Source of the DNA: Pseudobdellovibrionaceae bacterium
GTDB lineage: Bacteria > Bdellovibrionota > Bdellovibrionia > Bdellovibrionales > UBA1609
Direction of reading: 5' to 3'
NCBI GenBank assembly: GCA_947444305.1
Contig: CANEZP010000003.1
Location: 248,001 to 312,000 of the forward strand
DNA length: 64,000 nt
Below, in pieces: positions 14,942 through 61,975 of the stretch (the stretch's first letter is position 1; each line of letters opens with the position of its first letter). The notes beneath the pieces are model-generated. The model was not told the origin of the DNA, did not search any database, and saw nothing but the letters and a program-made list of their open reading frames with translations. The position numbers were made by a program, and so were the translations under genes.

Positions 14942-15823
14942 TTACCGGCCTTTTGAGAATTTATCTTCGAGGTAGGCGCGGAACGGTCCGCTCAGCTCGG
15001 GATGTTGTAGTGCAAGTTCGACGTTGGCTTTTAAAAATCCTAATTTGTCACCGGCGTCGAAGCGTTGCGCATCGATCACGGTGGCCATCATACCTTCTTG
15101 TTTAGCCAAGGCCGTCATGGCGTCGGTGAGTTGAATCTCGCCGTTTTTGCCGGGTTTGGTTTTTTGCAAAATTTTAAAAATGGCCGGGGTGAAAACGTAG
15201 CGGCCGGGTAACGCTAAGGTGCTGGGTGCACTCTTGACCGAAGGTTTTTCAACCACGGCTTTGACCTTCCACAGATTCTTTTTGACCGCTTCGACGTCGA
15301 CGATGCCGTACTTCGAAACTTCGCTTTTCGCGACTTCGATCACGGCGACGGTGGATAAGTCTGTGGATTCGGCGATTTTGTTTAATTGCGCGATGCCCGA
15401 GGGTTTGCCCTTAGGGGTAATCATGATTTCGTCGCCGAGGAGAACCGCGAAAGGTTCGCTGCCCGCGACGGGCATGGCGCACATGACCGCGTGGCCTAAA
15501 CCCAGCGCCTGCTGCTGGCGGATACTAATGACCGTCAAACCTTTACGCAGCTCGCGCACCTGTTTAAGCAAGTCGGCCTTGCCGGTTTTTTCGATGAGTT
15601 CTTCGACCTCGTAGGAAACATCGAAAAAATCTTCAATCGCGGTTTTGCCGCGGCCGGCGATCAGAATCAGTTCTTCTATACCGGCCGAAACGAGCTCTTC
15701 GACGTTATAGAGCAACGTGGGCTTATCGACGATGGGCAAAAGTTCTTTGGGAACGGTCTTCGTCGCGGGGAGAAATCGGGTGCCGAGGCCGGCTGCGGGT
15801 ATAACGGCTTTACGGATCTTCAT
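14942..15823 (-). CDS. galU: UTP-glucose-1-phosphate uridylyltransferase
   Basis: GalU makes UDP-glucose for surface polysaccharide and trehalose or glycogen-type pathways. The start is the ATG at 15821-15823, giving MKIRKAVIPAAGLGTRFLPA, the standard N-terminus. A longer open frame to 16015 carries no family similarity and overlaps the divergent gene, so I exclude it. The motif TKTVPKELLPIVDKP lies at about residues 20-34, and LGLGHAVMCA and AVLLGDEIM lie near 105-130. A length of 293 is normal. It leads the galU-exported protein-priA-CFI-box operon and is divergent from the FQNC protein gene. Confidence 0.97.
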   Translation of the reverse strand: MKIRKAVIPAAGLGTRFLPATKTVPKELLPIVDKPTLLYNVEELVSAGIEELILIAGRGKTAIEDFFDVSYEVEELIEKTGKADLLKQVRELRKGLTVISIRQQQALGLGHAVMCAMPVAGSEPFAVLLGDEIMITPKGKPSGIAQLNKIAESTDLSTVAVIEVAKSEVSKYGIVDVEAVKKNLWKVKAVVEKPSVKSAPSTLALPGRYVFTPAIFKILQKTKPGKNGEIQLTDAMTALAKQEGMMATVIDAQRFDAGDKLGFLKANVELALQHPELSGPFRAYLEDKFSKGR

Positions 15824-15953
15824 CGCCCTCAAGATTCCACATTTGAGACACTTTTCGCAAACAAATAGTTGCACCGATCCTTCATACTTTAGTGCAGGTT
15901 TCCGATACGTTTTAAGACAGTTGTCCGGCATTCGTCCTTGGAGGTGTCCTATC

Positions 15954-17180
15954 ATGTCCCAAAGTCTCAAAATGAGACACGTGCTTATCGTGTCGTGCGT
16001 TGGACTCATCCTCACCTTCCAAAACTGCTCGCAAGCCGCGTTCGACGGTGAGGGCGAGAATGAAGAATCCTCCTACGAATCCACTTTGCCTTTTGCTTAC
16101 TCCGCAAGAATTGACACGATCGCTTACATGTCCTGCTCGGGCATGAGCGAAAATCCGCCCGACAAACGTGGTTACTTCACGCTTCGCGCCGGTGCTTACG
16201 GCGTGTGTAATCCGGCCGACGTCAATTGCTCGCCTTTTTCAAATCCGGTCGCCGGACTCTCGATGTCGACGGAATTCCGTAACGCGACCAAGTTTTACGA
16301 TAAAAAACAAAAGGCTCATTTGTTCTCGATGAGCGATAAGAACGCGAATACGTTTTTAAGTTTATCCATTCGGTCGGCGGGCAATTACCAATTGCCTTGG
16401 AAAGAGGGCAACCTCGCGGCCGGCGAAGAACTCGACGCTATGTTGCCGGCCTTGGATTCGACCGCCATCGCGGGACCGCTCGGTTTTTCGAGCGAAGGCC
16501 AGATGATGAATTACTTCCCCGGCTCGGGCACGCAGCGCCTTATGGAAGGCAGTCTTCGTTACTACAATTTCGAAAATACCGCGAAACTCACGCGCGACAC
16601 GCTCAACCAAAAAGAAGCGTTGATGGTCGTCGGCTTCTCGACCGCCGCCGATCCGCTCGAAGTCGGCTTACGTTCACCGGATCAGCCCGCAACGGGTACG
16701 CAATTGCCCACCAACCGCGCTTACGGCACCGGTTTTAATCTGCAATTCGAATTGCCGACCGGACCATCCGGCGTCCGCATGACCGCGGGTGAGCAACGTG
16801 CGCTCGGCACTTCTGCGGGCGTTGAAGAAATTAATCTAACGAACAATCAACCGACGGGCGCCAGCTGGGATTGTAACTACAATTATCAGTTTATGGTCGT
16901 CCGTCCCGAGGATAAGGCCGCGGGCCGCGTCGTCTGTAACGCGGTCGCCGACGTCTTCAATAACGCCACCGAGCAAGCGGCGCTCAACGCCGTTCGCCGC
17001 GTCTTGCGCGTTGAAGACTGGTTCGTTGACGTTGCCAATCGCTGCATAATGCCCAAGCGCACCGGCGACTACTGCTACGGCAATGTGCAAGGCCGAGCGA
17101 TCATGTACGGGCAAACATCCTGCATTAACGACGGCACCCGAATGTGCCCGCACGTCGTCAGCGTTTGCATTCGCCGTTAA
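15954..17180 (+). CDS. Exported FQNC-motif protein of unknown function
   Basis: 408 residues from the ATG at 15954, which has GGAGG at 15940-15944, nine bases upstream. The N-terminus has a hydrophobic stretch (VLIVSCVGLILTFQNCSQAA) ending in FQNC, a lipobox-like cysteine with unusual flanking residues (Gln, Asn instead of small residues). The mature part is Asn-, Gly- and Ser-rich, with about ten cysteines. Several are clustered in the last 60 residues (CIMPKRTGDYCYG, SCINDGTRMCPHVVSVC), suggesting disulfide bonds. The same FQNC end is seen in the 61 kb gene. Function unknown; probably a surface or periplasmic lipoprotein. Confidence 0.8.
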   Translation: MSQSLKMRHVLIVSCVGLILTFQNCSQAAFDGEGENEESSYESTLPFAYSARIDTIAYMSCSGMSENPPDKRGYFTLRAGAYGVCNPADVNCSPFSNPVAGLSMSTEFRNATKFYDKKQKAHLFSMSDKNANTFLSLSIRSAGNYQLPWKEGNLAAGEELDAMLPALDSTAIAGPLGFSSEGQMMNYFPGSGTQRLMEGSLRYYNFENTAKLTRDTLNQKEALMVVGFSTAADPLEVGLRSPDQPATGTQLPTNRAYGTGFNLQFELPTGPSGVRMTAGEQRALGTSAGVEEINLTNNQPTGASWDCNYNYQFMVVRPEDKAAGRVVCNAVADVFNNATEQAALNAVRRVLRVEDWFVDVANRCIMPKRTGDYCYGNVQGRAIMYGQTSCINDGTRMCPHVVSVCIRR

Positions 17181-22820: not shown

Positions 22821-23615
22821 TCATTTTTCTTTCGCTAAAATATTTGCGGTTCCCGCGGGCATGCCGCCGAACAAAGCGATCAAAGTTTTATTCGGCACAA
22901 TGTGGCCTTCGGTGGCGATTGAAGCTGACGTAACGAGCGTGGTCTTTACGTTTTTAGCGGGCGATGTATTTCCTAATACGTCGCCGCGAACGTTCTTCTC
23001 CGGATCTTTTGCATCCTTAACCACGCCGACGACCGACACAAACTTTTCACCCTTAAACGAATTTAGAATTCGGTAAGCTTCGTAGGTACCCTTCGGCTCT
23101 TTTGATTCGATCAGGGCCTTGCCGTTATACGAAGCGCCGTCTTCTTCGGCGACCGCGCTGTATTGAAAGGCTTGATTCAATTCTAACTTTTTTTGCAACA
23201 TCAGGTAGGTAAGGAAACTGCTGAAGAACGTGCCCTTCGGAATTTTGTGCGTTTCGGTTTTCAATTTTTTTCCGTCGGCGATTTTTAGCGTCATGGTCTC
23301 GCCCTTGAAGCTGCCGTCGATCGTTTTGATTTCCGCACCGGATGCCGACGTGTACTGATAACTTATGGGTTGGAACTTATCGTTTGATTTCGCCTTCAAA
23401 CTTTCTTGCGAAATCTTATCGCCGATTTTTAATCGCATGAACGATGTGGCTTCGAAGGTTTTATCTTTAGGCTCGAAGGCGTAACGCTGAATTGCGTAGC
23501 CGATATGTTGGTCGGACAACTCAACCTTGTAGTAACCCTCGAACATGGTCTCGGCCGCGAAAGCGGCTACTGGACTAAAGAATAGGACGAGACTTACCAA
23601 AAGTAGATTTGCCAT
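22821..23615 (-). CDS. Exported protein of unknown function upstream of peptide permeases
   Basis: 264 residues from the ATG at 23613-23615 (GGAAA nine bases upstream), giving signal peptide MANLLLVSLVLFFSPVAAFA. The frame is open further 5' but would overlap the divergent gene. The mature protein is beta-rich and lysine-rich (for example FEGYYKVELSDQHIGYAIQR and KIGDKISQESLKAKSNDKFQ), ending in a basic tail. There are no cysteines in the mature part and no recognised motif. It is not a typical peptide-binding protein (those are about 500 residues), though its operon position before the permease pair would fit an accessory periplasmic component. Confidence 0.75.
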   Translation of the reverse strand: MANLLLVSLVLFFSPVAAFAAETMFEGYYKVELSDQHIGYAIQRYAFEPKDKTFEATSFMRLKIGDKISQESLKAKSNDKFQPISYQYTSASGAEIKTIDGSFKGETMTLKIADGKKLKTETHKIPKGTFFSSFLTYLMLQKKLELNQAFQYSAVAEEDGASYNGKALIESKEPKGTYEAYRILNSFKGEKFVSVVGVVKDAKDPEKNVRGDVLGNTSPAKNVKTTLVTSASIATEGHIVPNKTLIALFGGMPAGTANILAKEK

Positions 23616-23661
23616 GAGATTAGTTTCCAAGCTAACGAAAACAGTGTCAAAATTTTTTATA

Positions 23662-25686
23662 ATGACTCTTGCCGATAGAAGTCCACGCCGGTGGAAAACG
23701 CTCCTTAATAACCGTGGCCAAGCCGCGATCTTCATCGCTTTGATTTTCAACGTATTGTTCGTGTTCTTCGCGATGGCGATCAACATCGCTTTGGTGGTGC
23801 ACGATAAGATTAATCTGCAAAACTCGGCTGACCTCGCCGCCTACTACGCGGCCGCAAAACAAGCCGAGATGCTGAACGTGATCGCGCATCAGAATTACCA
23901 AATACGCCAGAGTTATAAACTTCTCGCGTGGCGCTACCACGTGCTGGGCACGATGGGACTTTACCAACAAGAACCCAGCCCGGTTTGGACGGGGAACGTA
24001 AGTGATACGGAATACTCGCAAGGGCGAAGGCCTTCCCTGTGCGTAACGTACAAACCGACTTGGCAGGAAGTTCCCGACAACGAGAACTTGTGTAACCGAC
24101 CGAACCTTCGCATTCCGCCGCTGCCCGAAGTTAAGGTCATCGCCGGATTCTTGGGCATCAATCACGGGATCGCCGCGCTCTCACGTCAATTGCGTTTGCA
24201 ATTCGATATTCAGTGCCAACGCTTGGGCGCGTACAACTGGTGGTTCGCGATGAGCATCTTACACGCATACCGGCTGGACCAGCGTAACCGTAAGCAAGTC
24301 ATTTACGGCATCGCGAAGAATCTATCGGGCGGCAAAGACGGCGACTTTCTCGACCTCGACGGCAGCTCGGTGGCCGCGGGCGCGCGACAGACTTTTCTGA
24401 AAAACCTAACCTTCGCCAACCGGCAGTCCTTCGAGACGGGCGGCGGTGAATTCAAGATGATGAATTCATTAGAAGGCATCGACGCGAAAGAATGGCTGCC
24501 CGAGATTCCGATTACGCCGACTTTGATTTACACCGACGTAAATAACGAGCCGGGCTGCAACGCCGATTCGCAGCCGATCTCGAATTTGCCGCAGCGGCCT
24601 GGGGCGCGCGATGTCCTTAACCAACCCTTCCCGCAAGGTCTGCAGGCTTCGAACTTGTTCGTTTGGAAAGACGTGAACGTGCTCGCCGATTCGGACTATC
24701 AATTCTCTATCGGCGTTGAGAAAAATCCCTGGTACATGCCCTATATGGGAATCCGCGTGAAGACGACTCCGCGTGAAATTTTTTTTCCGTTCGGTTCGGG
24801 GCTAGAGATGAGCGCACGTAGCTTCGCTAAACCTTTCGGTGGCCGAATAGGCCCGTGGTACCAATCCCGTTGGGACCGCGGCTCAAAGACATCGACCGGG
24901 GATTTAGTCGACGGCTTGATGGCCCCGCGCGTATCGGGCACGAACAGCGCCGACGATACACGTCGTTTACCGAACTACTCGCGCTACCCGGGCGATACGC
25001 TCGGACTCGCTTCGAACCTCGCGATCAACTCGCTTGCGGGCTTAGCCTCGCTCGGAATTAGTTACGATAGCTACAAAAATATCAAAGAGGACATCACGAC
25101 CGGTTCGCCCAACGATATTCTCGCGTGGGACGGCGGCAGCGGTACGGGACCCGAAGTTCGCAATTTCGAAATCGCGGCGTTGGCGCCGGATTTATTCGAC
25201 ATCACGTACTATTCGATCGAGCCGAATTTTTCGAAGAACTATTTCGAGAAATTAAAAGCCAACAAAACCGCGCTCGGGATTCCGTTCGACACGCCGGTGC
25301 GTCCCGATCTTGGCCATAACGGCTCAACCATCCCGGACTACAGCGTGCAGCAACAAATGGCGCTCGCGAAGTCGCGCGGGATACAGAAAAACGAAGCGTA
25401 TTATTTTGTGCGCGACAAAACACATTTGCTCACGGCCTGGTTGCCGGGGGTAGGCGCTTACAATTACGAAGTTGATGAATCGATGAAGAACTTCGGCCGG
25501 TGCGCCATGCCCGACGACGCGCTGAAATTTAAAAATCCCGGTTCGTGCGTGGCGGGCGGCGGGCGTACGGGCTATTCGGTGAAGATGGTTAGTCGCGACG
25601 CTCTGCTGTCGGCGCAGCACAAGATCGGCGGCGGGGCCGCGCCAAGCTCGATCCTCAATCCACCGAAGACCAACGACGGCTGGTAA
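23662..25686 (+). CDS. TadG-like pilus-assembly-type protein
   Basis: 674 residues from the ATG at 23662. After a short basic start comes NNRGQAAIFIALIFNVLFVF, then a transmembrane helix and HDKINLQNSADLAAYYAA. This is the pattern of the TadG/TadE N-terminal domain (Gly-Gln-Ala, helix, Lys...LQ.AAD.AA). The long remainder is periplasmic, Asn-, Gly- and Pro-rich, and has no recognised domain. No other tad/flp genes are adjacent. It is divergent from the permease operon and ends four bases before the convergent LspA-like gene. A role in pilus or surface attachment is inferred from the N-terminal domain only. Confidence 0.7.
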   Translation: MTLADRSPRRWKTLLNNRGQAAIFIALIFNVLFVFFAMAINIALVVHDKINLQNSADLAAYYAAAKQAEMLNVIAHQNYQIRQSYKLLAWRYHVLGTMGLYQQEPSPVWTGNVSDTEYSQGRRPSLCVTYKPTWQEVPDNENLCNRPNLRIPPLPEVKVIAGFLGINHGIAALSRQLRLQFDIQCQRLGAYNWWFAMSILHAYRLDQRNRKQVIYGIAKNLSGGKDGDFLDLDGSSVAAGARQTFLKNLTFANRQSFETGGGEFKMMNSLEGIDAKEWLPEIPITPTLIYTDVNNEPGCNADSQPISNLPQRPGARDVLNQPFPQGLQASNLFVWKDVNVLADSDYQFSIGVEKNPWYMPYMGIRVKTTPREIFFPFGSGLEMSARSFAKPFGGRIGPWYQSRWDRGSKTSTGDLVDGLMAPRVSGTNSADDTRRLPNYSRYPGDTLGLASNLAINSLAGLASLGISYDSYKNIKEDITTGSPNDILAWDGGSGTGPEVRNFEIAALAPDLFDITYYSIEPNFSKNYFEKLKANKTALGIPFDTPVRPDLGHNGSTIPDYSVQQQMALAKSRGIQKNEAYYFVRDKTHLLTAWLPGVGAYNYEVDESMKNFGRCAMPDDALKFKNPGSCVAGGGRTGYSVKMVSRDALLSAQHKIGGGAAPSSILNPPKTNDGW

Positions 25687-25689
25687 TCA

Positions 25690-26568
25690 CTACGATTTAA
25701 TTTTACGACGGATATTCTCGTGCAGGCTCTCAAGCTCACCGACGAAGTCGTCACCTTTGCGGAGTTTCAGAGCGGGATGGTCTTTAGCGGGCTCATCTAA
25801 CACGGCCTGAAGCGAAGCCGAAAATTTAAGAAGGGCGCCGGCGGTGCGGTGTGAAATCGCGATGCCGCATAACCAACAGACGACGCTCAAGCTAAGATAG
25901 GCGCCCAGCGACGTGACCGCGAAAAGAATCAGCAGAGGATTGACTCCGTTCCCGCCGAAGTTCCAAGCGTGCCCGCTCGGCCCGTAGGTGATGAGACCGC
26001 TCAAGAACATCGGGATAAATCCGATCGTCATGGCGGTTTGCAGATAAAGGCAAAAGCGTAATTGATATTTGCGATTCACGAGTAAGTGCGCTCGTCGCTC
26101 ACGCTTGCTGACCGACTTCCAAATAAAAACGATGCTGTAGACCACGATCATGTAGCCCACGACTTGCGCAACGTCCGCCAGGTTGAAGAACGGAGTTTGG
26201 ATCCCGAACATTTTTATCCCGATGAAGTCATGGACAAAGCCGTTGAGGGCACGATCGGTCGCGTTTGCCATGAAGCCCGCCGCGAGCATCAAGAAACCGA
26301 ACGGCAGTAGCTTGAACATCTTCGGCAAAAATATTTGGGTTGAGATGGCCGAGATGAGGAACACCGAAGCGAAGATGCTGCTGGTGATCGAAAGTGCCCC
26401 GAACGGTAGTTCTCTACCAATGTTAAGAACCATCCCTAAATTCTTAACAAGCGTGAGTTGAAACGGGCCGAACGCTAACGGTTGCGGATCGAACAACGTA
26501 ATGACCGCGACGTACTTCGTAATGAAATCAAGAGTTAAAATGAGAATCACGAGTAGGGCCGCGTACAT
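25690..26568 (-). CDS. Signal peptidase II (LspA)-like domain fused to HAMP-type membrane module
   Basis: 292 residues, almost twice the usual 160 of LspA. Residues about 1-150 resemble LspA: LDFITKYVAV in the first helix, LVKNLGMVLN, then ANATDR near 107, FVHDFIG near 115 and FNLADVAQVVG near 132. The Asp in HDFI and the Asp in NLAD correspond to the catalytic pair. After that come two further helices (YLQTAMTIGFIPMFLSGLI and a second near 215-240). A cytoplasmic segment GIAISHRTAGALLKFSASLQ...LKLRKGDDF...ENIRRKI follows, which looks like the HAMP-type linker of many sensor proteins in this group. Substrate handling or sensing is open. Neighbours give no clue. Confidence 0.75.
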   Translation of the reverse strand: MYAALLVILILTLDFITKYVAVITLFDPQPLAFGPFQLTLVKNLGMVLNIGRELPFGALSITSSIFASVFLISAISTQIFLPKMFKLLPFGFLMLAAGFMANATDRALNGFVHDFIGIKMFGIQTPFFNLADVAQVVGYMIVVYSIVFIWKSVSKRERRAHLLVNRKYQLRFCLYLQTAMTIGFIPMFLSGLITYGPSGHAWNFGGNGVNPLLILFAVTSLGAYLSLSVVCWLCGIAISHRTAGALLKFSASLQAVLDEPAKDHPALKLRKGDDFVGELESLHENIRRKIKS

Positions 26569-26702
26569 GATTAGTTATCGGCCGCTTGGCACGATCCTGA
26601 AACGCCGGTCTAAAACATATATTTTCGAAAGCGCTCATTAATCCCGGAAATACTGCCGAACATTTGACGTCGGGTTTATCCGGCATGAACACGGAGCAAT
26701 TG

Positions 26703-28085
26703 ATGTTTGGACAAGTGGGACGTTGGAGCAAGATAGCAATCGGTACGGCGGCGTTGACCGTGCCCGTAGCCGCGATGGTTCTTTTTCAGAACTTCAGCCG
26801 GGTAACGAACGTTACCGAGTTTGAAAGCCTACGGATGGCCGATCCGAATTTGTACGCCTCGATGGTGACCTTAGAAGACCGTCTCATTCCGGTGCGCAAT
26901 AATCCGCAATCTTGCATGATCGATCGTCTCGAAGCCGAATCGGATAACCTCGATGCGCGCGCCAAGATATTAGCTTCGGCTTTGTCGATGCCGATGGCCC
27001 CGCCTCCCGTGAAGGCCGTCTACACGTTACTCAACGACGCGGAATCGAAACTCGCCGTCATCAATACGATCCGTTCGAATACGACGACGCTTTCCTATTA
27101 CGTAATGGACATTACGTCCGAGACGCCCCCCGCGGTTCCTAGCATGGAACCTTTGAAGCCCTTCGTACTAAAAGTTTTGGGATCGGGCGAAATCGGTCTC
27201 GTCGTGATCGACAATTCGCCCTATCAGCGTGGCCCCGCCACCATCCGCATCGACTTAGACCCCGCAGGTCCGCAGGCGCGGATCGTGAACGCAATCGGTG
27301 TTTCACGCATGCCCATCATGTTCCAAGGCATGGTCGGCCGTATTCACCAGCTTCCTCCGCCGCCCAACGGCTTTAAACTCTCGAGCCGCGCGCACGCGAA
27401 GGCTTCACTGAGCATTGCACTGTCGAGCTTGGCCGGCCAGGGCAGCCTTTCGTGTGACGACGCCAAGTTCTGGTCGTGGCGCCTCATCGCTCCCGGCGGC
27501 AGTTACTCCCTTTCGACTCCGTCATCGGCGAGTGCTTTCGATCCCGCAAAACGATGCGAAGTCGCGAGCATGACGTCACGTAATGTCCTTACATCGAATC
27601 AGGCAAGCATCGAAGCGTGCCGCGCTTACGCACGTTCTTTGTCACCGTTCTTCTTACGCCACGGCGAGCTTTTGCCCACCGGTCGCGTAAATTATGACGT
27701 TCGTTACGCCGGCCAATCGATTCCGCCGTACGCGATGCTGAATTGCTCGGTGCTCGGAACGAACGGCGCCGTTCGCTTGATCGGTCAGTATCCTGAGCCG
27801 AATGTTTTGGATTGTTTAAATAACGGTTCGATGGCGGGCAACTCGATGCCGCCCGAGCTCGCGGTTAGCCTGACCTTCGGAACAGCGAAATTACTCGGTA
27901 AAGGTCTATGCAGTCTTTACGACGTGAAAGGTGGCTTGTTGAAGTCCATCGCCCAGCCGTCGGAGCAGGAATGTTACCGCTACGCCGACCAGACGTACAT
28001 GATGCCGCCGGCGACGTACGTACCCGGTTGGATGCCGCCCGAGCGCCCGGCGCAAGTGATCTACGGCTTCCGTCGTATTCGCTAA
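26703..28085 (+). CDS. Exported protein of unknown function (FQNF relative of FQNC proteins)
   Basis: 460 residues from the ATG at 26703, preceded by GGAG at a spacing of 6; two ATGs slightly upstream lack this. The N-terminus has a membrane segment (IAIGTAALTVPVAAMVLFQN) ending FQNF, where two other genes in the window have FQNC. The mature part has several cysteines (for example QSCMIDRLEAE, LSCDDAKFW, CEVASM, IEACRAYA), a Pro-Ser-rich stretch and a conserved-looking C-terminus GFRRIR. It could remain membrane-anchored because no cleavage site is obvious. A good terminator follows. Function unknown. Confidence 0.78.
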   Translation: MFGQVGRWSKIAIGTAALTVPVAAMVLFQNFSRVTNVTEFESLRMADPNLYASMVTLEDRLIPVRNNPQSCMIDRLEAESDNLDARAKILASALSMPMAPPPVKAVYTLLNDAESKLAVINTIRSNTTTLSYYVMDITSETPPAVPSMEPLKPFVLKVLGSGEIGLVVIDNSPYQRGPATIRIDLDPAGPQARIVNAIGVSRMPIMFQGMVGRIHQLPPPPNGFKLSSRAHAKASLSIALSSLAGQGSLSCDDAKFWSWRLIAPGGSYSLSTPSSASAFDPAKRCEVASMTSRNVLTSNQASIEACRAYARSLSPFFLRHGELLPTGRVNYDVRYAGQSIPPYAMLNCSVLGTNGAVRLIGQYPEPNVLDCLNNGSMAGNSMPPELAVSLTFGTAKLLGKGLCSLYDVKGGLLKSIAQPSEQECYRYADQTYMMPPATYVPGWMPPERPAQVIYGFRRIR

Positions 28086-61081: not shown

Positions 61082-61975
61082 TTGAAGGATTTCGTTTGGC
61101 GCACGGGCGCGATTGCATTGTTTGGTCTGACCTTCATTCTACCTTTCCAAAACTGCGCAAAACTTTCTTCGCTAAAAGGCGGAGAAGCTTCCTCGAGCAG
61201 CCACGGCGTTCCGCACATCATGCGAACTTCGTCGGTTGAATCTTTGAACACCGACATCAACTTCCGCGTGTTTGACGAACGACTTTCGACCTCGGCGCTA
61301 TTCAATTGGACTTTCAAGTTGGATAACGTCGCTTCCGGCTGCGCGCCGAAAACGGCCTCAAACGCGTCGACTTTTATTTTGAATTGTTCGGCTCCCGGCA
61401 GCTTAAAGGTGACGGTTGAGATTACCGACGCCGGCGTGACGCAAAGCTTGTCGTACTCGACAATCTTGCAGACTCCGTCGAGCGGGAACGAAATCCCGAT
61501 GGACGTCGTTTTCGAAATTCCGAACGGCACCGGCGATGCTTCTTGGAATACCGCCGCGACGCGGGTTGAAACATTCGTCGGTCAAAAGCTGAAACTTAAG
61601 AACATGGATTCGGGCAATCACCAGCTACACACGAACGGCAAACCCTGCCCGCACGGGAACTCGATCGCGCCGGGTGCCACGGTGGATTGCGTGATCTCGC
61701 AGGCTTACAATCCGACCGCCGACGGTACGGTTTACGATCACGACGACGGAACGACCGCGCGTTTCAACCTCATCGCTTATAACGGTGCGACGCTTTACGC
61801 ACAAAATTGTGCCGGCTGCCATACGGCGCTTGCGACGAGCACCGTTCCGATGGCGAAGGTTTCGTCGATTCTCGCCGCCCGCTCGAGTAAGCCCGCCATG
61901 ATGGGCAACGCCGCTGTACAGGCCTTGACCCGCCGGCAAATCGAAGCGATCTCCTACGCCCTCGGCGCCCGCTAG
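61082..61975 (+). CDS. FQNC lipoprotein-like protein with cupredoxin and cytochrome c-type domains
   Basis: 297 residues from a TTG at 61082, with GGGGG six bases upstream; no suitable ATG exists. The N-terminal membrane segment (GAIALFGLTFILPFQNC) ends in FQNC as in the 16 kb protein. A beta-sandwich-like region (45-140) follows. Then a cupredoxin-like stretch at about 155-225 has VGQKLKLKNMDSGNHQLHTN, CPHGNSIAPG and VYDHDDGT (possible copper ligands His, Cys, His). A C-terminal cytochrome c-type segment carries the heme motif CAGCH near 247 and an axial Met later. Suggests an electron-transfer protein tethered to a membrane. Confidence 0.78.
   Translation: MKDFVWRTGAIALFGLTFILPFQNCAKLSSLKGGEASSSSHGVPHIMRTSSVESLNTDINFRVFDERLSTSALFNWTFKLDNVASGCAPKTASNASTFILNCSAPGSLKVTVEITDAGVTQSLSYSTILQTPSSGNEIPMDVVFEIPNGTGDASWNTAATRVETFVGQKLKLKNMDSGNHQLHTNGKPCPHGNSIAPGATVDCVISQAYNPTADGTVYDHDDGTTARFNLIAYNGATLYAQNCAGCHTALATSTVPMAKVSSILAARSSKPAMMGNAAVQALTRRQIEAISYALGAR

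Follow-up and report, generated by a model that had tools for sequence, protein, structure and literature searches.

Genes and features at the locus

The window (the whole stretch of DNA that was analysed, 64,000 nucleotides of contig CANEZP010000003.1 from a Pseudobdellovibrionaceae bacterium, hereafter G000) carries on its minus strand a 292-aa reading frame, complete from ATG to stop, that encodes a protein (P0001) with an LspA-like N-terminal half and a HAMP-like C-terminal half. The frame ends 3 bases from a convergent gene (23545-25686). The features considered below are as follows.

15717..17180, + strand: predicted FQNC-type lipoprotein, box at 16017, possible substrate of the fusion class (census and pattern)
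25690..26568, - strand: LspA-HAMP-like fusion, 292 aa (P0001), divergent paralogue (ORF, Pfam, alignment, model, tree)
25696..25743, - strand: second HAMP-like helix, residues 276-291, after the connector LRKGDDF (models)
25795..25944, - strand: sixth membrane helix running into the first HAMP-like helix, residues 209-258, holding SHRTAG (models; structure matches to WalK and HAMP)
25987..26073, - strand: fifth helix, residues 166-194, presumed membrane helix (model)
26125..26553, - strand: LspA (Peptidase_A8) domain, residues 6-148 (Pfam; fold match to 6ryp/6ryo/5dir, Z 16-18)
26173..26175, - strand: codon of Asp132 at a catalytic position (NLAD; alignment)
26227..26229, - strand: codon of Asp114 at a catalytic position (VHDFI; alignment)
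26664..28085, + strand: divergent neighbour and possible partner, with an N-terminal hydrophobic stretch followed by FQNFSR (ORF, homology search)
26784..26795, + strand: FQNF motif, an FQNC-type box with Phe for Cys (pattern search)
61082..61975, + strand: predicted FQNC-type lipoprotein, box at 61145, possible substrate of the fusion class (pattern)

The LspA domain

Residues 6-148 of P0001 span the whole Pfam Peptidase_A8 model (PF01252; 1.8e-18, 67.6 bits against a gathering cut-off of 25). This is the LspA profile match that the initial annotation had called for, and together with the retention of D114 and D132 it bears out the proposed LspA-like domain with both catalytic Asp positions. 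We take D114 and D132 to be the LspA catalytic pair, in agreement with the alignment to 6ryo, the LspA that is also the nearest solved sequence (9e-8). Against the NCBIfam lspA equivalog (TIGR00077) the protein scores 43.4 bits, below the cut-off of 73.95; P0001 is a member of the Peptidase_A8 family that is not filed as a standard LspA. Its predicted structure (pLDDT 83), for which an alignment of 31 fusions was used, has LspA-part helices up to residue 152 and superposes on the LspA structures 6ryp, 6ryo and 5dir with Z scores of 16-18 (Foldseek 3.5e-6 to 6ryp). In an alignment with 21 standard LspA proteins of the phylum, D14, K18, N43, G45, G98, N102, D105, R106, D114, N129, A131, D132 and G138 are kept in P0001, and R59 and G101, nearly invariant in those proteins, are changed.

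The HAMP-like C-terminal half

HAMP domains follow a membrane helix with a helix - connector - helix arrangement. Models of the whole protein and of its C-terminal part both place such an arrangement straight after a membrane helix in P0001, and the motif SHRTAG...LRKGDDF within it is common to P0001 and 30 homologues that are 28-35% identical over their full length. The HAMP profile search suggested in the initial annotation came back empty: P0001 does not reach the Pfam HAMP (PF00672) cut-off, the NCBIfam search likewise returned no HAMP, HAMP is absent among the 25 of 30 families shown for the 31 fusions in Pfam at E<=10, and the C-terminal model gave no Foldseek match at E<=0.001. Since Pfam HAMP is not reached, the term "HAMP-like" as used here refers to bridging proteins and fold comparison.

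Two stand-alone proteins provide the bridge. L125, a 172-codon frame of the same genome (FSHRVFGP...LRKDDEL), exceeds the Pfam HAMP cut-off (1.4e-8), as does L107, a two-helix deltaproteobacterial protein (1.4e-5, 25.8 against 25 bits) that was retrieved by the C-terminal profile of the fusions themselves. Both share with the fusion the order TM - short loop - TM - SHRxxGP...LRKxDEL hairpin, but they are small separate proteins lacking the LspA domain. An hhalign comparison of the C-terminal profile of the fusions with HAMPs of the same genome gave 86% with L125 included, 8% with L125 left out, and 0.2% for a reversed-column control. The C-terminal model (residues 162-292) aligns over 123 residues with the TM-HAMP part of a WalK-type sensor kinase (9a5d; rmsd 2.8, Z 7.1, a range that the tool calls a possibly common arrangement), and it matches HAMP structure 2y0t over 45 of 52 residues (rmsd 2.4) with a low Z of 5.2; these ranked first and third in a comparison of only 14 chains, all Z values being low. 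Unlike WalK, the fusion has no kinase or other output domain. These comparisons support the C-terminal half as a two-helix HAMP-like module, HAMP by resemblance and not by Pfam. The HAMP-type module named in the initial annotation thus stands as two helices and a HAMP-like hairpin, but not as a Pfam HAMP, and the same qualification attaches to the proposed fusion, the architecture of which is real and widespread in the order. The same genome also holds a single long frame (1862 codons, G000:C1:236746-239940) with 12 tandem HAMP matches.

Distribution and conserved neighbourhood

Three Peptidase_A8 genes are present in G000: a standard LspA of 181 aa on contig C10, adjoining ileS-like and lgt-like genes (identified by eye), a fusion of 311 aa on contig C20, and the window copy. 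The second, standard-length lspA for which the initial annotation proposed to look does therefore exist, and because G000 holds both this gene and another fusion, P0001 is not the sole lspA with a C-terminal half devoid of HAMP similarity that the annotation had named as its counter-case. Matches to P0001 occur in 53 of 58 close relatives, fusions and non-fusions together. A search through 290 genomes of the phylum with the 31-fusion alignment (tallies counted from the result table) found the fusion in 87/95 sampled Bdellovibrionales genomes and in both genomes of another order of the same class (2/2) at E<1e-100, and in more diverged form in 52/193 remaining Bdellovibrionota genomes at E<1e-30; the order was recognised as Bdellovibrionales through its named relatives. 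The C-terminal profile alone retrieved 55 loci among named genomes, 53 of them full-length matches; most are labelled Bdellovibrionales, Bdellovibrionaceae, Bdellovibrio or Oligoflexia, and they include Bdellovibrio bacteriovorus strain kdesi (L090). Two Deltaproteobacteria match the HAMP-like end alone, one of them being the stand-alone form L107. A pattern parsed 44 of the 53 full-length loci as complete fusions, the other nine not being read singly, and the 31 fusions used for the structure prediction were drawn from those parsed. One metagenome bin, whose record is titled Streptomyces griseus (L082), contains the fusion and neighbourhood typical of Bdellovibrionales and is probably mislabelled.

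In alignment, the active-site residues are kept in nearly all fusion copies. The architecture, these conserved residues and the conservation across the phylum are direct observations. Set beside standard LspA (6ryo, 6ryp, 5dir), P0001 has the same fold, the same two catalytic Asp and nearly every invariant residue. It differs by about 130 extra residues that comprise two more helices and the HAMP-like hairpin, by a score below the NCBIfam lspA equivalog cut-off, and by its coexistence with a standard LspA. The conserved fusions differ further in the residue three positions after the second Asp, which is Ile in 21/21 standard LspA proteins and Gln in 18/18 conserved fusions. A second non-fused LspA clade (L350, L351, L352, L354, L364) occupies a tree branch separate from standard LspA, so that some relatives carry three LspA types.

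The gene neighbourhood of the conserved fusion is stable across 61 loci. Clusters 1 (46 loci) and 3 (38 loci) are divergent from it, clusters 4 (26 loci) and 6 (14 loci) precede it on the same strand, and cluster 2 (43 loci) follows it. By eye, the conserved neighbours are a PBP4-type carboxypeptidase, a lytic transglycosylase, a peptide-binding protein (Pfam SBP_bac_5), a response regulator-GGDEF protein and a DnaQ-like exonuclease.

Some fusions are longer (485-657 aa, L132-L135) and carry extra C-terminal parts. Signalling output domains were considered for these and rejected: by eye the extra parts are fused neighbours, namely a CLTCH protein and, in L135, a peroxiredoxin-like protein. For instance, the fusions at L133:2963-4921, L134:264-2237 and L132:1630-3594 continue into the CLTCH protein to give three-part chains of 652-657 aa, and a chain that joins the hairpin to a protein presumably bound for export would have to be cleaved or to contain an internal signal.

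Atypical lipoboxes beside fusions outside the order

The textbook lipobox is [LV][ASTVI][GAS]C (PMC8689077, in the part of that paper available). Thirty-six neighbourhoods, almost without exception those of diverged fusions from outside Bdellovibrionales, were scanned for genes in which a hydrophobic stretch leads into a box with N, H or Q at -1. Twenty genes were flagged and one, L221 (GYQNC), was added by eye, with the result that 21/36 loci present a partner lipobox of the form [FY][NTQ][NHQ]C beside the fusion; the other 15 show no atypical box, some of them ending at contig ends. ORFs directly adjacent to a flagged fusion have an atypical box in 15/61 cases and a standard box in 1/61, and the other ORFs of these neighbourhoods have 5/96 of each. 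The fusion was missed by the pattern in L146, L226, L233, L234 and L238, the neighbours of which were counted as "other"; among the five atypical boxes of this category, that of L234 is directly adjacent to the fusion and those of L133, L138, L230 and L237 lie two genes away.

With signal peptides removed, the 21 partners fall into six families (12, 4, 2, 1, 1 and 1 members) that show no mutual BLASTP similarity at 1e-4. What is new here is that LspA-HAMP fusions outside the order adjoin lipoproteins with non-textbook lipoboxes from six unrelated families; this linkage, too, is directly observed. The largest family has an invariant CxxCH. Homologues of this partner were sought in 129 genomes of the f18 family, and all 28 readable N-termini, from 30 loci given, have N, H or Q at -1, in a search whose pattern also permitted G, A and S. 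Among the 96 f18 genomes that were also part of the 290-genome search, fusion and partner occur together in 27, the fusion alone in 14 and the partner alone in 2, and 53 have neither (Fisher 1.7e-11, uncorrected for phylogeny). In one partner-only genome (G270) the fusion is truncated by a contig end, and the other (G222) has no fusion, only stand-alone HAMP-like proteins. The CxxCH lipoprotein belongs to a conserved block at the diverged fusion, often with a CLTCHYNP protein and others (L136, L139, L140, L219, L223, L224, L225, L227, L229, L232, L234 and L236), which looks like an electron-transfer or surface system.

A lipobox census covered about 400 kb per genome, other letters at -1 serving as a measure of noise. 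G126, which has the fusion, yielded 39 candidates (26 G/A/S, 4 H, 1 N), and its believable H boxes (YNHC, YTHC, YNHC) lie at 105.1-113.9 kb, within 5 kb of the fusion at 109.5-110.3 kb. In G064, a genome of the same genus with no fusion detected, 13 candidates (6 G/A/S) included zero N/H/Q in about 400 kb. The census of G050 gave 31 candidates (26 G/A/S, 1 N), and that of G000 gave 35 (22 G/A/S, 4 N), the N boxes being FQNC three times and FTNC once.

The FQNC class in Bdellovibrionales

FQNC boxes were sought as a DNA pattern of two NTN codons followed by FQNC, with the reversed pattern as control. In G000 all matches (4/4) are N-terminal after a hydrophobic stretch; predicted FQNC lipoproteins of this genome lie at C9:53579, C10:85112, C10:108208 and C13:59032 (L148-L151). 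Of 144 genomes searched, the 37 from the order gave 206 matches against 43 for the control, and the 107 others of the phylum gave 119 against 87. Four of 30 loci inspected from this search are N-terminal, all four in the order. A phylum-wide FQNC class is unsupported, with matches near control level outside the order and N-terminal loci all from within it. A second set, from order genomes that lack the full fusion and from G021 and G030, passed the N-terminal test at 16 of 30 loci inspected.

Order genomes without the full fusion gave the following FQNC counts, with the control in brackets: G020 0 (1), G031 0 (0), G032 0 (0), G033 1 (3), G016 1 (2), G293 0 (0), G054 6 (0) and G266 7 (2); the fragmented G021 gave 7 (2), and G030 gave 2 (0). 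Reduced genomes with no FQNC excess either lack the fusion (G020, G032, G033) or have eroded LspA motifs (G016, G031). In the latter two, fusion-length proteins (L372 and L371, respectively) have lost the N-x-G and GN motifs of LspA and are possibly pseudo-enzymes, judging by sequence; that of G016 sits behind a peptide-binding-like gene, as at the conserved locus. Fusion and FQNC proteins thus tend to disappear together. A strict dependence of FQNC on the fusion is rejected, as far as assemblies go, by G054 and G266, in which FQNC is present, with at least one N-terminal match each, and no fusion is found in the assemblies. It should be noted that no FQNC gene lies beside the conserved fusion of Bdellovibrionales, and that FQNC alone need not require a special enzyme, since lipoproteins of Leptospira often have Asn at -1 according to the available part of PMC2063517.

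A proposed specialised second signal peptidase II and its alternatives

The best explanation, to which we give about an even chance of being correct, is that LspA-HAMP serves Bdellovibrionota as an additional, specialised signal peptidase II for lipoproteins with atypical lipoboxes. It would work alongside standard LspA and cut precursors in which the Cys is preceded by a bulky polar residue ([FY][QTN][NHQ]C, in Bdellovibrionales FQNC). Cleavage would proceed by the usual LspA aspartate pair, and the two extra helices and the HAMP-like hairpin may keep the enzyme dimeric and adjust or gate what it does; we infer substrate choice, dimerisation and regulation from the comparisons above. That the fusions apparently travel with rule-breaking lipoboxes suggests a separate, specialised lipoprotein pathway, and a specialised peptidase is favoured because six unrelated atypical-box families adjoin fusions, because fusion and partner co-occur in f18 and because FQNC is in excess in the order. 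It is not proven, because G054 and G266 keep FQNC with no fusion detected; in these, standard LspA may cut FQNC. Also counted against it are the partner without a fusion in G222, the 14 fusion genomes of f18 that lack the CxxCH partner, the 15/36 neighbourhoods with no atypical box, the position of the conserved fusion away from FQNC genes, the frequent Asn at -1 in Leptospira, and the lack of a Cys in the neighbour of the window copy. The suggestion in the initial annotation of a repurposed protease fits the linked, predicted atypical substrates and the extra LspA copy.

The persistence of FQNC proteins in G054 and G266, the commonness of Asn at -1 in Leptospira and the retention of both Asp and most invariant LspA residues would also be expected of a general back-up LspA, which would cut ordinary lipoproteins, the atypical boxes reflecting a relaxed taste of the phylum and its LspA. 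We consider such redundancy unlikely but worth keeping in view; the close association of the fusion with six unrelated atypical-box families, the co-occurrence in f18 and the zero atypical boxes in 400 kb of G064 argue against it. The HAMP-like module, together with a gene that by eye resembles a response regulator/GGDEF protein and lies near the fusion in 14/61 loci, would suit a receptor whose LspA part senses prolipoproteins or LspA inhibitors and whose HAMP-like part signals to a separate cytoplasmic partner, e.g. that adjacent regulator. This reading seems to us improbable: in none of the 31 aligned fusions is the HAMP-like part followed by an output domain, the regulator gene is missing at most loci, and active-site residues are kept in nearly all copies. 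The coupling of lipoprotein processing to signalling proposed in the initial annotation accordingly found no backing beyond that one neighbouring gene.

Additional LspA copies are also known from producers of LspA inhibitors (PMC8689077, PMC9943842), and a resistance role has been proposed for lspA3/lspA4 of Myxococcus. By analogy, the fusion could be an inhibitor-insensitive LspA that shields the predator from globomycin- or myxovirescin-like antibiotics. Like the fusion, Myxococcus lspA3/4 and globF of the globomycin cluster are second LspA proteins besides a housekeeping one, but they reportedly lie within antibiotic clusters, and the available parts of the same two papers mention no HAMP-like tail. 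The near-universal presence of the fusion in the order and its conserved neighbourhood, with no biosynthetic genes noticed beside it, make protection from antibiotics a very improbable role.

No description of an LspA-HAMP fusion, nor a study of Bdellovibrio LspA, was found in the literature searched, as far as the texts were available. The usual view of LspA is that of a single enzyme acting on a single textbook lipobox. If the specialised peptidase is real, two parallel routes of lipoprotein maturation would exist in one cell in a phylum known for its predators, prediction tools that expect G/A/S at -1, as in the textbook box, would overlook one class of surface proteins in relatives of Bdellovibrio, and a second LspA class would bear on drugs directed at LspA.

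The window copy and its FQNF neighbour

The window copy is only about 30% identical to the conserved fusions and sits on a long branch (1.35) of the tree, in which all fusions fall on one side against standard LspA (support 93, not starred). A second odd paralogue occurs in G002, a genome of the same genus (L038:2693-3637; 28% identity to P0001 over 204 residues), and both proteins have A for G101 and have lost R59. Constraining the window copy and L038 together gave a tree 11 log units better with a p-AU of 0.68, so that neither grouping, with or without L038, is established. Sequence features suggest that the window copy is a fast-diverged paralogue that is probably still active.

The protein encoded at 26664-28085 has no homologue in 57 relatives and no Pfam match. 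LspA cuts before a lipidated Cys (PMC8689077, available part), and since this Cys is absent the protein cannot be a normal LspA substrate; Phe in its place would mean that the protein is not cleaved, that it blocks the enzyme as a pseudo-substrate, or that the specificity is new. As a class marker in G000, FQNF was rejected, the motif at 26784-26795 being the only one of seven pattern matches that closes an N-terminal hydrophobic stretch. Most likely, the window copy acts on this neighbour or is controlled by it. It is possible, at somewhat less than even chance, that the window copy alone is decaying or inactive and that the FQNF of its neighbour is a coincidence or a plain membrane anchor, which would be compatible with a specialised peptidase in the rest of the family. 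The long branch, the loss of R59 and G101 and the lack of homologues of the neighbour point to decay, but the frame is intact and the catalytic residues are kept, and the G002 paralogue likewise adjoins an FQNF protein. A bolder and improbable proposal is that the window copy and the G002 paralogue, as peptidases of the LspA fold, have shifted to an FQN-F signal devoid of Cys; as signal peptidases II they would recognise FQN itself with no need of a lipidated Cys, each paired one-to-one with the adjacent gene. Each of the two does adjoin a protein with a hydrophobic N-terminal stretch ending in LFQNF[ST]R, and the two neighbours are alike in that motif only, over 10 residues.
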